Positions 27,529 through 37,113 of a stretch of 38,634 nucleotides of DNA are shown one piece after another; position 1 is the first letter of the stretch; each line of letters begins with the position of its first letter. The stretch comes from Pseudomonadota bacterium (GTDB taxonomy: Bacteria > Bdellovibrionota > Bdellovibrionia > Bdellovibrionales > JACTMU01). The stretch is from assembly GCA_014584465.1 (NCBI GenBank), contig JACTMU010000085.1, forward strand, positions 1-38,634. Direction: 5' to 3'. The position numbers and the translations under genes were made by a program. The notes beneath the pieces were generated by a model, which worked only from the letters and a program-made list of their open reading frames with translations, did no database searches and had not been told where the DNA came from.

Positions 27529-27714
27529 CCAGCCACTATTTGAGTGGCTGGCGCGAAACCTCATTTCGAGTGAATTTGCATAAGTTTTTCTTAGACCGAG
27601 GCGAGCCGACGAAGGGCTAGCCAGAGGCGCTAACTCGAGGAGGCTCAACAAAGGTATAAGGAAAACTTATGATAAATTCACCGAAATGAGGTTTCGCGCC
27701 AGCCACTATTTGAG
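27529..27714. repeat. Palindromic element, copy 1
   Basis: The 16-bp direct repeat CCAGCCACTATTTGAG lies at 27529-27544 and 27699-27714, 170 bp apart. Between them a long imperfect palindrome folds back: AGTGGCTGG at 27543-27551 pairs with CCAGCCACT at 27699-27707, and pairing continues inward to ACC 27595-27597 with GGT 27653-27655. A 55-nt central loop contains GAGCC/GGCTC and the palindrome GGCTAGCC. It is about 90% identical to copy 2, and 27595-27671 is fully identical. It sits between the convergent aldehyde dehydrogenase and HTH genes and supplies or abuts the TAG stop of the latter. CCAGCCACT and AGTGGCTGG at 27529-27551 also form a separate 9-bp hairpin 14 nt after the aldehyde dehydrogenase stop. 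Confidence 0.85.
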
Positions 27715-28242
27715 CGCGAAGAAGAGAGCGGAGAGAAAGAGGGCCACAATGAGGGCGCCACCGATTTTGATGAGAACTCTTTTTTGAAAAGCAGCAGGAT
27801 CTCTCATGCGAAAATAGAGCCTCTCCACCCGATAACGATCCTCGGGGGCGACCTCTCGGCCAGGGTAGAGCAGAGTGAGCGGATCCACACTCAACTCAAT
27901 GGCCATTTGAACCCCAAGTCCGATCGTCATCGGCTGTCGATCGGCTTCAATCTCTTCAAGCTGAGAGATGGTAAGGCCCAATTGAGACGAAAACTCATCG
28001 CTTTCAATCAAGAAAAGTTCTCTTATGGACTTAAGTCGCGAGCCCGGCGTGGCCTCACCTCTAAGGATCTTAGATAGCTCCTGAGAGATCTCATTCACGG
28101 CCTCCCTAAACTCGTCACAATTCAGATTGTGAATCCGACAATATTCATTAAGGTCATGTTGCCCTTTTCGGAAATCAAGAACTGCAGAAATCCGACTGGA
28201 CCTCCTTGCCTTCCAAGCATTCAAATTGATCACATTTTCCAT
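27706..28242 (-). CDS. Membrane-anchored HTH (XRE-like) protein
   Basis: 178 residues from the ATG at 28242; upstream in-frame TTG starts are unlikely because they lie within or beyond the promoter. Residues 1-60 are helical and basic at the start. Residues 69-128 look like an XRE/Cro-type helix-turn-helix (LKSIRELFLIESDEFSSQLGLTISQLEEIEADRQPMTIGLGVQMAIELSV). A single membrane helix at about 158-176 ends the protein (IKIGGALIVALFLSALFFALK). The DNA-binding domain would therefore be held at the inner membrane by a C-terminal tail anchor, the same order as RodZ but with no periplasmic domain. The stop TAG coincides with the end of the palindromic element. The role is unknown; it may be a membrane-tethered regulator of itself or of the divergent genes. 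Confidence 0.75.
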   Translation of the reverse strand: MENVINLNAWKARRSSRISAVLDFRKGQHDLNEYCRIHNLNCDEFREAVNEISQELSKILRGEATPGSRLKSIRELFLIESDEFSSQLGLTISQLEEIEADRQPMTIGLGVQMAIELSVDPLTLLYPGREVAPEDRYRVERLYFRMRDPAAFQKRVLIKIGGALIVALFLSALFFALK

Positions 28243-28260
28243 GATTCTACCCCATCTTCT

Positions 28261-28289
28261 ATTATTGGATTTATAATGCGATAAGTCAA
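28261..28289 (-). promoter_or_regulatory. Promoter of the membrane HTH gene
   Basis: On the minus strand TTGACT (plus 28284-28289) and AATAAT (plus 28261-28266) are 17 bp apart. The predicted transcript would begin about a dozen bases before the ATG at 28242, which explains the short leader. Confidence 0.55.
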
Positions 28290-28618
28290 TTTTGAGAAGC
28301 AAATTCTTCTGCGTCTGACTCAATCTGAGACAGATTGAACTCGAAACTCATTTTCTACTCTGGTGTTACTAAGGCGCTCTGGTGGCGGCTTTCATGATTA
28401 TTTGCCCATTTCCAATTTCAGATCCGGGTTCTCACTTCAGATCCGGCTTTGAACTATTTTCTAAAATCGACGCCAAAATGGCGCTTGATTGCATGGCACT
28501 CCCCTTGAAACCCCTATCCCTTCTGAATCTGGTGGGCATGAGTTCTGATGACCTTGGCATAAAACTTGATCTTACCAAATAAGACGGATGGACATCTTAG
28601 ACATCCGAGGAGGAGATC
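28290..28618. other. Intergenic region with an 11-bp direct repeat
   Basis: TTCAGATCCGG occurs at 28417-28427 and 28436-28446, a 19-bp spacing that puts both copies on nearly the same DNA face, so it may be a regulator site. An open frame from 28382 to 28582 lacks a ribosome site and any recognisable protein. I see no strong promoter. Confidence 0.4.
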
Positions 28619-32784: not shown

Positions 32785-32814
32785 CTTGACGTGGCTCGTA
32801 ATTCAACCTCATAA
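32785..32814 (+). promoter_or_regulatory. Promoter of the HNH endonuclease gene
   Basis: TTGACG (32785-32790) and CATAAT (32809-32814) are 18 bp apart, giving a predicted start of transcription near 32821 and a leader of about 40 nt. Confidence 0.5.
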
Positions 32815-32860
32815 TAGAAGGAGGGAATTTAACAAGGAGGTCGCCCACTTCAACCAAGTG

Positions 32861-33376
32861 ATGGCCAGAGTCTTGGTCCTTAATGCTAGCTATGAGCCTC
32901 TTACGATTGTCAGTTGGCGAAAAGCTCTCATCCTGTGGCTAACGAATAAAGTAGAGGTTGTCGAGTTTCACTCCATGTGGGTGCACAGCGCTTACCATCG
33001 TTTTCAACTTCCCAGTGTCTTAAAACTCAATCGATATGTAAAAGGTCAAAAAGATGGGCCCATTCGCTTCTGTAGAGAAAATGTCTATCTTCGCGATGGT
33101 CATCAATGCCAATACTGCGGTCAACGGGTCCCTCTATCCACACTCACTCTGGACCACGTCGTTCCCGTTTCCCACAATGGGGGTCACAACTGGAACAACG
33201 TTGTGACCGCCTGTCGCACATGCAACAACAAGAAGGGAAACCGCACGCCCGACCAGGCCGGTATGCCCCTTCTCACAAGACCCTACAAGCCTCGGTGGCT
33301 TCCCCAGAGAGAGTTTGCCTACCACAATGAGCAGATGCCCATCTCGTGGGGACCCTACTTGGGGGCTGTTCGGTAA
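32861..33376 (+). CDS. HNH endonuclease-family protein
   Basis: 171 residues from MARVLVLNASYEPL. The N-terminal block (YEPLTIVSWRKALILWLTNKVEVVEF; PSVLKLNRYV) is typical of a widespread bacterial HNH family. The nuclease core has zinc-type cysteines CQYC (83-86) and CRTC (118-121), the metal/catalytic motif LDHVVPVSHNGGHNWNNVV with Asp98 and His99, and NNKKGNRTP. It cuts DNA in principle, but members of this family are usually unlinked housekeeping-like genes of unclear role. The start is odd: AAGGAGG lies 20 nt before the ATG and a second AAGGAGGG lies at 32817, with no in-frame start at normal spacing; a GTG at 32858 is possible. It ends 22 nt before the convergent DUF2141 gene. Confidence 0.9.
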   Translation: MARVLVLNASYEPLTIVSWRKALILWLTNKVEVVEFHSMWVHSAYHRFQLPSVLKLNRYVKGQKDGPIRFCRENVYLRDGHQCQYCGQRVPLSTLTLDHVVPVSHNGGHNWNNVVTACRTCNNKKGNRTPDQAGMPLLTRPYKPRWLPQREFAYHNEQMPISWGPYLGAVR

Positions 33377-33398
33377 TTCGCTTATGGAAATATGTGGC

Positions 33399-34221: not shown

Positions 34222-34735
34222 TCAGTTGCAAAAGCGTAGAACTCCCAATTCACACAACGATTTTCTAAACACAAGATGATCTTCTTTTAGTCTTGAGTTT
34301 TCTTCTTCTAAAGATTCTATTTTCGCTTCTTCTGATTGGCATCGATGAACAAGCTCCTTAGTAGCTTCTACGAGAATCGGCGCAAAGGCACCATAAGCCA
34401 CGGCTTTGTAGCCATTAGAACCGGTAGAGACAAATTCGGGGAAGAATATTTGTTCCACGTCTTGAGCAATGAAACTGTATTTTGCTTCCTCATCTACTTG
34501 GTGTTTCCATTTATAATTTACTCCTTGTAACTGGGTCAATTTTTCCAGCATAGCGACGCTGTCTAATTTCGTTACATCTTTCTTCAGTCATTCATCAGAT
34601 GAACATATAAGGGAGGTGCTTGTCGGATTGATGGTGCAGATGCCGTTGGAGTCTGTGAATCCTGCAACATCGCCATCAGTGGATCTGACGACGTGGAGAA
34701 GATACATTGCTGATTCCGTTCCAAGCACTAACTAG
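34222..34735 (-). pseudogene. Broken tail-fibre protein with S74 chaperone domain
   Basis: The open part (34222-34551) encodes the C-terminal intramolecular chaperone (Peptidase_S74) of phage-tail-fibre-like proteins: KLTQLQGVNYKWKHQVDEEA, FIAQDVEQIFFPEFV and YGAFAPILVEATKELV, then a coiled coil. Upstream the same frame continues as GTESAMYLLHVVRSTDGDVA and FTDSNGICTINPTSTSL, then SSDE-stop-LKKDVTKLDSV. The family has SSDERLKK here, so CGA (Arg) has become TGA at 34588-34590. The 5' part is missing: the frame runs into the palindromic element at 34736. The gene is therefore both truncated and interrupted. S74 domains normally trimerise a surface fibre and then cut themselves off. Confidence 0.85.
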
Positions 34736-34907
34736 TAGTGCCTGGCGCGAAACCTGCTTTCGAGCGAATTCCCATAAGTTTTTCTTATACCGAGGCGAGC
34801 CGACGAAGGGCTAGCCAGAGGCGCTAACTCGAGGAGGCTCAACAAAGGTATAAGGAAAACTTATGGTGAATTCGCCGAAATGAGGTTTCGCGCCAGGCAC
34901 TAACTAG
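34725..34907. repeat. Palindromic element, copy 2
   Basis: The terminal inverted repeats TAGTGCCTGGCGCGAAACC (34736-34754) and its exact complement (34884-34902) bound a 167-bp element, flanked by the 11-bp direct repeat GCACTAACTAG (34725-34735 and 34897-34907). Inner stem pairing continues through CGAATTC (34765-34771) with GAATTCG (34868-34874) and CATAAG with CTTATG. The central loop is identical to that of copy 1. Compared with copy 1, three base pairs differ on both sides of the stem and remain paired. It lies exactly between two damaged genes and provides the stop codon of the heparinase-like one. Confidence 0.88.
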
Positions 34908-36879
34908 GGGCTTTTTTTGCACCCGATGCAATGGTGATCGTAGCCTTAGTATGCATACTCCACACCACATCAACAGAAGTGTTGGCCGATATTTCAACGA
35001 CGAGAAAGCGTTGTCGTCCTTCAAGAAGAGCAATGCCTCGTTGAACTTTGTTTATGCCTGCAGGTGCATAAGCCGCTGACAAATCCACAATCGCTTCTCC
35101 GCCAGAGTCCCTAGAGGCAAAATGGATGATCGGAGCGATGGCCTTATGATCTTGATTTAAATTATTGATGAGCAAAGTGTTCTGACCCTGTGTGCCGCAA
35201 CGGTAATACTCACCTCGTTCCGGATATCGCCAATAATTCTTCAAGTCATAGTTGTCACCCCCCAGTTCCATAGCCCAGCGCTGTCCTTCGGTGTCAAATA
35301 CGAAAGTACCTAAATCGAGATTGCCATGGCTGGTGCGATTATCGCCTCCCTTAAATCCAATAAAGGCGGCATTGGAATCAAGCCACTTCGAGCGAAAAAA
35401 AACCACCGGATATTTTCCTTTGAAATAGACGTCACGTGGTTGTTTGAGCATATCTTGGGAGGTTCCTGATGTATGAAACCAAAACAGATGATCAACGGTG
35501 GATTTGCTGGCGCTAACTCTTCCCAGCCAACTTAGAACTGCATGGTTGTAGCGTTGACCAATCCAGAGCATTATATCAGAAGTGGGGTACTCAGATGAAT
35601 CACTATAGTTGAAATGTTTTCCGGTAGGACCCGAAGAGTGCATAAAATATAATCCCATGGATGACAACCCAGGAAGAGAACTTAATCCAAAATCTGTTCC
35701 GAGCGCTGAGTTAAGTGAGGCCAACATCAAGACGGCATAGTCCGTCGCGTAACTCCAGTAGTTTGGTCCCTCTGGCCAGACTCCGTCGGGAGCATAAGTG
35801 GCAAAAGCCTTTGTGGAACGAGTAATATTTCGATAGAGAAGCCACCGAGCCAATTCGGGTTCTTCGTCAGCAACCGCAAGAGCTCCCGCAGCGATACCTC
35901 CATTACAAACCAAGCTCCAATTATTGGTGGTATTCGTCCAGCTGACGTTATTTTCAAAGTCTGCTTTTGCGGCTTTAAGCCCTTTTTCAACCAGTGCGGT
36001 TCTAATGGTATTCCGTTCCGCAACCGAAAGTATGTTGAAAAGCCAGTCATATCCGAGGGCAAAACCGTGACTCATTTCTGCCACATCGAGAAAATGTTTT
36101 GGATTCCAATCGGAAAACGCAGCGGCTGCAAGGAGTTCTTTGATGGCTCGATCTGCATAGTTTTTGTTTTCGGTAATTCGATAGATTAGACTCAAAATGC
36201 GGACTCTGTTTTTTACCGTTCGACTGACTTCAAGTAATTTTCCTCCAACTACCTTTTGTGTTGAAACGGGGGTATTCAGGAGTTCATCAGCTTGCTTCCG
36301 TAAATTTTCAAAGTAAGCCTTGGCTATAGCATTATTCTTGATGTGATTGTGAATCGTCACGAGCGCCTCTGGCGGGACAATCAATCGCGGATGTCCTGTG
36401 CGCAGGGTTGACAGCATTGTCAACTCATTCGGTGGGGTGTAGTTCTCTGCCTCAGTGACTGAATCGTCAGCAACGCCCCCTTCGTTTTCTCCACTGCCAT
36501 TATTGTCAGAAGCAGGTGATGATGGGCTGTCGCCAATGAATGGTTCATGGCTGGCGTTGTGATCATTGTCAGCAAGTGTCCCATTGTCATCATGATCATT
36601 ATCGGCAAGTGTCTCATTGTCATCATGATCATTATCGGCAAGTGTCTCATTGTCATCATGATCATTATCGGCAAGTGTCTCATTGTCATCATGATCATTA
36701 TCAGGCGATGACGGCGGACAAATTCCTTCGCAAAGAGAACCACTTGTGGTGCGACCGATGGAATTTATTGACGTCAGTGATTTGCCACAATTTTGATAAG
36801 AGACCAAGAGTATGAGCAATGTTGAAATGGTAGAGAGTGCAGTCATGAAAGAACGTTCTCTTTTCACTTTAAGGAACAT
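34900..36879 (-). CDS. Heparinase II/III-like protein, C-terminus probably truncated
   Basis: 659 residues; the ATG at 36879 has GGAG 5 nt upstream. The N-terminus has an export signal (MTALSTISTLLILLVSYQNCG) with a possible non-standard lipobox YQNC. Residues about 60-105 are an acidic tandem repeat (DNDHDDNETLA), then a Ser/Asn/Gly/Glu-rich linker. From GHPRLIVPPEAL an alpha/alpha toroid follows as in heparinase II/III and alginate lyases (DWNPKHFLDVAEMSHGFALGYDWLF; NWSLVCNGGIAAGALA; WPEGPNYWSYATDYAV), then the central beta-sandwich (FIGFKGGDNRTSHGNLDLGTFVFD). It should eliminate or bind uronic-acid polysaccharides outside the cell. The sandwich stops abruptly after VVWSMHTKATITIASGAKKAPS, at the TAG of the palindromic element, about 100 residues short of typical relatives. 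Activity may be lost. Confidence 0.85.
   Translation of the reverse strand: MFLKVKRERSFMTALSTISTLLILLVSYQNCGKSLTSINSIGRTTSGSLCEGICPPSSPDNDHDDNETLADNDHDDNETLADNDHDDNETLADNDHDDNGTLADNDHNASHEPFIGDSPSSPASDNNGSGENEGGVADDSVTEAENYTPPNELTMLSTLRTGHPRLIVPPEALVTIHNHIKNNAIAKAYFENLRKQADELLNTPVSTQKVVGGKLLEVSRTVKNRVRILSLIYRITENKNYADRAIKELLAAAAFSDWNPKHFLDVAEMSHGFALGYDWLFNILSVAERNTIRTALVEKGLKAAKADFENNVSWTNTTNNWSLVCNGGIAAGALAVADEEPELARWLLYRNITRSTKAFATYAPDGVWPEGPNYWSYATDYAVLMLASLNSALGTDFGLSSLPGLSSMGLYFMHSSGPTGKHFNYSDSSEYPTSDIMLWIGQRYNHAVLSWLGRVSASKSTVDHLFWFHTSGTSQDMLKQPRDVYFKGKYPVVFFRSKWLDSNAAFIGFKGGDNRTSHGNLDLGTFVFDTEGQRWAMELGGDNYDLKNYWRYPERGEYYRCGTQGQNTLLINNLNQDHKAIAPIIHFASRDSGGEAIVDLSAAYAPAGINKVQRGIALLEGRQRFLVVEISANTSVDVVWSMHTKATITIASGAKKAPS
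36561..36692 (-). repeat. 33-bp in-frame tandem repeat, four copies
   Basis: Four 33-bp units start at 36561, 36594, 36627 and 36660; the last three are identical and a partial unit follows to about 36705. Each encodes DNDHDDNETLA in the heparinase-like protein. The identity of the units suggests recent expansion by slippage. The Asp/Asn pattern could bind calcium. Confidence 0.9.
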
Positions 36880-37113
36880 CAAATCTCCATAATTCTATGC
36901 TTTAGTTAGAGTCTGCATCAGGTCTAAGAACAAACGTGAAATGGCAAATGAAGCGAACAGACGCATACTTGTTCAGAGTTCAAAGTACCATAAAAATGGG
37001 GGTATTTCAAAGATCATCGTTGAACATGTCTCAAGTTGAATCAACAGAATCTATCGCACTTTGAATCTAAGGGGTGTGAAAACACAACGAACTGAAGACC
37101 TCGCCCGCTCCCA

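Follow-up and report, generated by a model that had tools for sequence, protein, structure and literature searches.

The window analysed here, a stretch of 38,634 nucleotides, contains two copies of a long palindromic element whose arms differ by substitutions that preserve pairing. The question raised by this locus is whether the folded form of the element is selected or whether its matched arms only reflect the way in which it spreads. A reading made from the sequence alone had argued for a selected fold, and had suggested a non-autonomous mobile hairpin (MITE or REP/RAYT-like) or a structured RNA. We find that the element is a MITE, and we think it probable that this 165-bp MITE carries a conserved core that is selected or recognised as a folded single strand, likelier DNA than RNA.

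Anatomy and decay of the element in its source genome

Both copies are evident in the sequence and their likeness is far beyond chance. The first search of the 3.75-Mb draft genome returned 40 scored places (best E 5e-93), and pattern searches of the genome find 134 matches to the ends of this family (family 1) versus 1 with a reversed-pattern control, and 122 matches to the core, 73 of them exact, versus 0 in the control. A second family has the same core, very different arms (AGGGGCTGTCCGGTAATTC...), 154 end matches and similar short target repeats. Alignment with other copies in the genome sets the limits of the MITE as AGTG to CACT. The wider limits of the sequence-only reading, 27529-27714 and 34725-34907, do hold the two copies but take in flanking repeats (Table 1). 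The inverted repeat AGTGNNTGGCGCGAAACC is found at both termini in 26 complete copies, 16 of which are flanked by perfect target duplications of 4-5 bp, mostly of the form ANNT. The direct repeats reported earlier, of 16 bp in copy 1 (CCAGCCACTATTTGAG, at 27529-27544 and around the right end) and 11 bp in copy 2 (GCACTAACTAG, at 34725-34735 and 34897-34907), are real, but each is a composite of a target-site repeat and an apparent right-end remnant of another copy. At 165 bp the element has no coding capacity (no internal ORF of 90 aa) and, as had been noted, no transposase is present among the window proteins scanned. With its terminal inverted repeats, target duplications, dispersed copies in high number and no transposase of its own, the element in the source genome is a MITE, a known kind, its autonomous partner being the one defining point left.

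Table 1. Positions of the two MITE copies, their flanking repeats and related features in the window
Feature	Position	Strand	Basis
MITE copy 1, family 1, AGTGGCTGGCGCG...CGCGCCAGCCACT	27543..27707	+	165 bp; sequence and genome search
MITE copy 2, family 1, AGTGCCTGGCGCG...CGCGCCAGGCACT	34737..34901	+	165 bp; sequence and genome search
Left target duplication ATTTG, copy 1	27538..27542	.	sequence and copy alignment
Right target duplication ATTTG, copy 1	27708..27712	.	sequence and copy alignment
Probable remnant of another copy's right end, CCAGCCACT, left of copy 1	27529..27537	+	inferred from comparing right ends
Conserved folded core, copy 1	27581..27670	+	models R1 and R2 match
Left direct repeat of copy 2, GCACTAACTAG (target-site repeat and probable end remnant)	34725..34735	.	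sequence
Right target-site repeat AACTAG, copy 2	34902..34907	.	sequence
Conserved folded core, copy 2	34775..34864	+	115 bits with model R1
Solo left end of family 2, GGGGCTGTTCGGTAATTCGCT, at HNH gene 3' end	33362..33382	+	locus L009, offset 125; ORF end

Numerous copies in the source genome are truncated, internally deleted, chimaeras of families 1 and 2, or inserted side by side. Long palindromes are unstable, and internal deletion is expected of them. Solo ends of 20-60 bp are also numerous (loci L058-L097); they retain the outer end but break off at various points within, which suggests that deletion is frequent or insertion incomplete. Element ends also form parts of genes in the window. 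The TAG stops of two minus-strand genes, 27706-28323(-) and 34900-36882(-), consist of the terminal CT of the element and the first A of its right target repeat (27706-27708 in copy 1, 34900-34902 in copy 2), and the last codons and TAA stop of an HNH endonuclease gene (32786-33376) come from the solo left end of family 2. The gene at 34900-36882 encodes a DUF4962/heparinase-like protein, in whose N-terminal part a short tandem repeat (window 36420-36815) encodes DNDHDDNETLA units.

The three pairing-preserving double substitutions on which the sequence-only argument was built are present: G-C at 27547/27703 versus C-G at 34741/34897, plus two T-A versus C-G pairs. The 26 complete copies show 27 compensated changes, 23 of them at only three stem positions (element positions 5, 6 and 29), which are alleles common to many copies. 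The three double substitutions are subfamily alleles, and two copies alone therefore cannot show selection on the fold. From two copies we could not decide between selection, inherited matched ends and arm-to-arm copying. The same 26 copies have 75 unpaired stem changes and 50 that are single but wobble-compatible, and since stem changes are mostly single, inserted copies decay much like neutral DNA. Further copies with non-pairing arm differences had been named in advance as evidence against a selected fold. Such differences do predominate within the source genome, but not between families or genomes.

A covarying core in elements with unrelated ends

It is the comparison between genomes, not the two window copies, that supports selection on the fold. 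A search of relatives with covariance models, which had been proposed from the sequence alone, recovered the core widely: model R1 has matches in 19 of 66 genera of the order (28 of 141 genomes), with arms that differ completely, and model R2 in 52 of 182 genera of the phylum (80 of 369 genomes). The core consists of a stem, GA/GAA, one pair, GC/AA, two pairs, GA/GA, one pair, GA/GA, one pair, GAA/GA and a hairpin, with ordinary pairs in place of the first GA/GA unit in the source-genome families. Its purine internal loops comprise C-RAGGCG / CAACGAA-G, GA/GA units split by single G-C pairs, and GAA/GA. Counted on 45 distinct core sequences, both-sided change occurs at 30 of 31 pairs, double-change cells number 416 versus 122 +/- 9 in shuffles, and the covariation score is 0.761 versus 0.185 after shuffling and no more than 0.177 when the structure is slid; the covariance model grew by iteration out of an initial structure, so that the alignment and the percentage of paired cells lean towards it. 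Such fitting alone, however, cannot produce whole arms of differing sequence that are complementary throughout. Many unpaired columns are nearly fixed, at 83-100% (95-100% for the AGGCG stretch, 83-100% for CAAC and 100% for the first G of GAA), while the single G-C pairs between GA/GA units switch between C-G and G-C. Hence the earlier view that the fold is selected finds its support in covariation between genomes and in the orthologous hairpins described below, and not in the two copies from which it was drawn.

An exact consensus pattern was scanned over 84,980 species, one genome each. It occurs in 53 stretches, and the records that contain them bear the names Omnitrophota (including Candidatus Velamenicoccus archaeovorus), Elusimicrobia, Actinobacteria, Acidimicrobiales, Gemmatimonadales, Colwellbacteria, Deltaproteobacteria and Pseudobdellovibrionaceae; because the pattern fixes the loops, these cross-phylum records are uninformative on loop conservation. 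Their arms, which lie outside the pattern, form long complementary stems of differing sequence, and sampled records score 57-85 bits with model R2 in 12 of 13 cases and 44 bits in the remaining one. Several cross-phylum elements are present in multiple copies in a single genome; their ends are constant and their flanks CTAG-like, which makes them MITEs with other kinds of ends. Elements of one genome (G032) whose ends resemble those of family 1 match the core model weakly. There was no match to the consensus core in a plasmid collection and none to the exact pattern in viral contigs.

The novelty lies in this core, which covaries, is common to differing transposon ends and phyla, is replication-polar in two Bdellovibrio-type chromosomes (see below) and has no counterpart in Rfam, where a match would have spoken against a new element (no gathering-score match in the window, and nothing at E up to 1 for six loci). 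We found no description of the core motif in the literature searched, of which coverage was incomplete, nor any specific description of a Bdellovibrio MITE or REP among open-licence papers, which is weak evidence. The interior of a MITE is commonly regarded as filler, but in these elements it is a structure that is conserved, covaries and recurs between unrelated ends in several phyla. The core alignment would be a new motif-database entry and can be used to seek the factor that recognises it.

Strand orientation and replication

We placed 35 modules of two complete Bdellovibrio-type chromosomes (G065 and G067) relative to GC skew in 20-kb windows and to neighbouring genes; the G067 chromosome begins with dnaA-dnaN-recF-gyrB-like genes. 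The module lies on the negative-skew strand in 32 of 35 cases (p 4e-7). Given that the copies of the two chromosomes are partly orthologous, we also merged orthologues, and the bias holds in 26 of 28 (p 3e-6). At loci where both neighbouring genes run against replication, the module follows replication in 6 of 6, although two of these loci are mutually orthologous (with weak local skew), which leaves five independent loci and a two-sided p of 0.06. Measured skew was used for these two chromosomes only; in four further chromosomes the strands split in the same way by map halves, if coordinates are assumed to start at the origin. A module on the negative-skew strand has its purine-loop strand as the leading-strand template, and the exposed lagging-strand template carries the complement. 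As single-stranded DNA the module strand is predicted to fold better than the complement (-15.6 versus -12.3 and -19.1 versus -14.5 kcal/mol), with an energy model that does not reproduce the inner helices on the module strand, and polarity may therefore keep the stabler fold off the exposed strand. These observations suggest a connection between hairpin DNA and the polarity of replication in Bdellovibrio-type genomes that can be tested.

An earlier comparison of the first Bdellovibrio-type loci had yielded a single syntenic pair between close species. In a systematic comparison, seven orthologous modules are found in G065 and G067, with flanks 71-93% identical, and in several of these hairpins both arms are altered together. 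One orthologous module breaks the orientation rule (G065:3619503 / G067:782873) and lies just upstream of tRNA-like sequence, as does the source-genome copy L006. In the source genome there is no orientation bias with 20-kb windows (22 versus 16, p 0.42) or with 3-kb flanks. Since these young MITEs are without bias, either selection builds the bias up or mobilisation differs.

Known systems and competing explanations

Bacterial MITEs such as the Coxiella QMITEs (PMC5896051; reviewed in PMC10969869) are likewise short and non-coding, with inverted ends, target duplications, many copies and a long hairpin. They differ in that the interior here is a conserved covarying module common to elements with unrelated ends across phyla; the review does not mention a conserved core common to MITEs with different ends. 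The Correia elements of Neisseria are MITEs whose interior is palindromic and whose end is TATAGTGG-like. Their core words resemble this core in a way that we take to be superficial, and a Neisseria gonorrhoeae copy gave no core match with model R2 (best E 0.14, arms only). In integrons, the R and L boxes of an attC site are recombined as a folded strand by the integron integrase; dispersed single sites and target duplications argue against such a site here.

In a further explanation, REP/RAYT- or IS200/IS605-type mobilisation of the folded strand by a Y1 transposase occurs at the replication fork. Each of the 8 host genomes searched has Y1_Tnp (IS200/RAYT-like) matches, which pass the family cut-off in 7 (G067 has ten and G065 six, in frames of ~190-315 aa), REP/REPIN and CGTC-tagged repeats are palindromic repeats near gene 3' ends, and IS200/IS605 elements, whose subterminal folded single-strand DNA is recognised (PMC5371812, PMC6006769), show the same replication-tied orientation (PMC5371812) as the Bdellovibrio-type chromosomes. 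However, an orientation linked to replication is known both in IS608 and, via the sliding clamp, in several families of transposons (PMC5371812), and so does not name the enzyme. IS200/IS605 elements carry their own transposase, unlike the window elements, which have target duplications and no orientation bias. CGTC-tagged families have 8-9 bp stems and terminal tags (PMC3733652), whereas our elements are 165 bp with long arms and lack the GTAG/CGTC tag arrangement. Within the eight Y1 loci read there is no core match and no REPtron arrangement, and DDE_Tnp_1 and DDE_3 loci read in eight host genomes (the source assembly being in 120 contigs) have no element-matching ends, so that the transposase or RAYT with matching ends, which the sequence-only reading had suggested looking for, did not appear among these loci. 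We therefore drop the REP/RAYT-like label, and regard Y1 mobilisation as improbable.

The module could instead act in RNA at gene 3' ends, as a terminator, stability element or protein-binding RNA, and be merely spread by MITEs. Structured RNAs typically show such fixed purine loops between helices that covary, and many copies do abut gene 3' ends; but copies occur in both orientations relative to genes, the strand follows replication rather than the neighbouring genes in the two Bdellovibrio-type chromosomes, and Rfam has no match. The structured-RNA reading is accordingly a minority possibility, with orientation data favouring DNA. We give a distinctly lower probability, if slightly above that of Y1 mobilisation, to an ordinary MITE with an unselected fold, in which the transposase requires matched ends and arm changes are copied across by replication template switching. 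The mostly single stem differences of the source genome, with doubles confined to a few shared alleles, agree with it, and hairpins with compensatory changes can arise and persist through template switching, without selection (PMC8794818). Yet arm copying would turn the purine loops into a perfect palindrome and so erase their mismatches, whereas the loops are the part best conserved across unrelated arms, and the core is common to several phyla; we therefore prefer selection on the fold.

Based on these data, we propose that a MITE carrying a selected, folded core would be moved in trans by a cut-and-paste transposase that recognises AGTGNNTGGCG ends and duplicates a 4-5 bp AT-rich target. 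Its core is a conserved hairpin module, with Watson-Crick stems free to vary and purine internal loops almost fixed, and it recurs in many genera and several phyla within hairpin elements whose arms and ends are unrelated. The module may be recognised or tolerated by some factor when folded and single-stranded, most likely as DNA during replication, and this factor would preserve it while arms and transposon ends are exchanged. Once inserted, source-genome copies decay neutrally and lose parts, and pairing would thus be kept in spreading lineages, not in each copy. More tentatively, and with rather less than even confidence, we suggest that the core is an ancient structured single-strand DNA element present across phyla and built of stacked purine pairs. 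It would move between transposon ends, be recognised folded at replication forks and, in Bdellovibrio-type genomes, be kept at fixed sites with a strand polarity that replication sets.

The core also occurs in other arrangements. Double-hairpin elements have two opposed cores within one outer palindrome (L162-L169 of G086, L131, L193, L198, L200, L226 and L227), and at two loci the core hairpin forms tandem repeats (L128 in G027 and L130 in G018).
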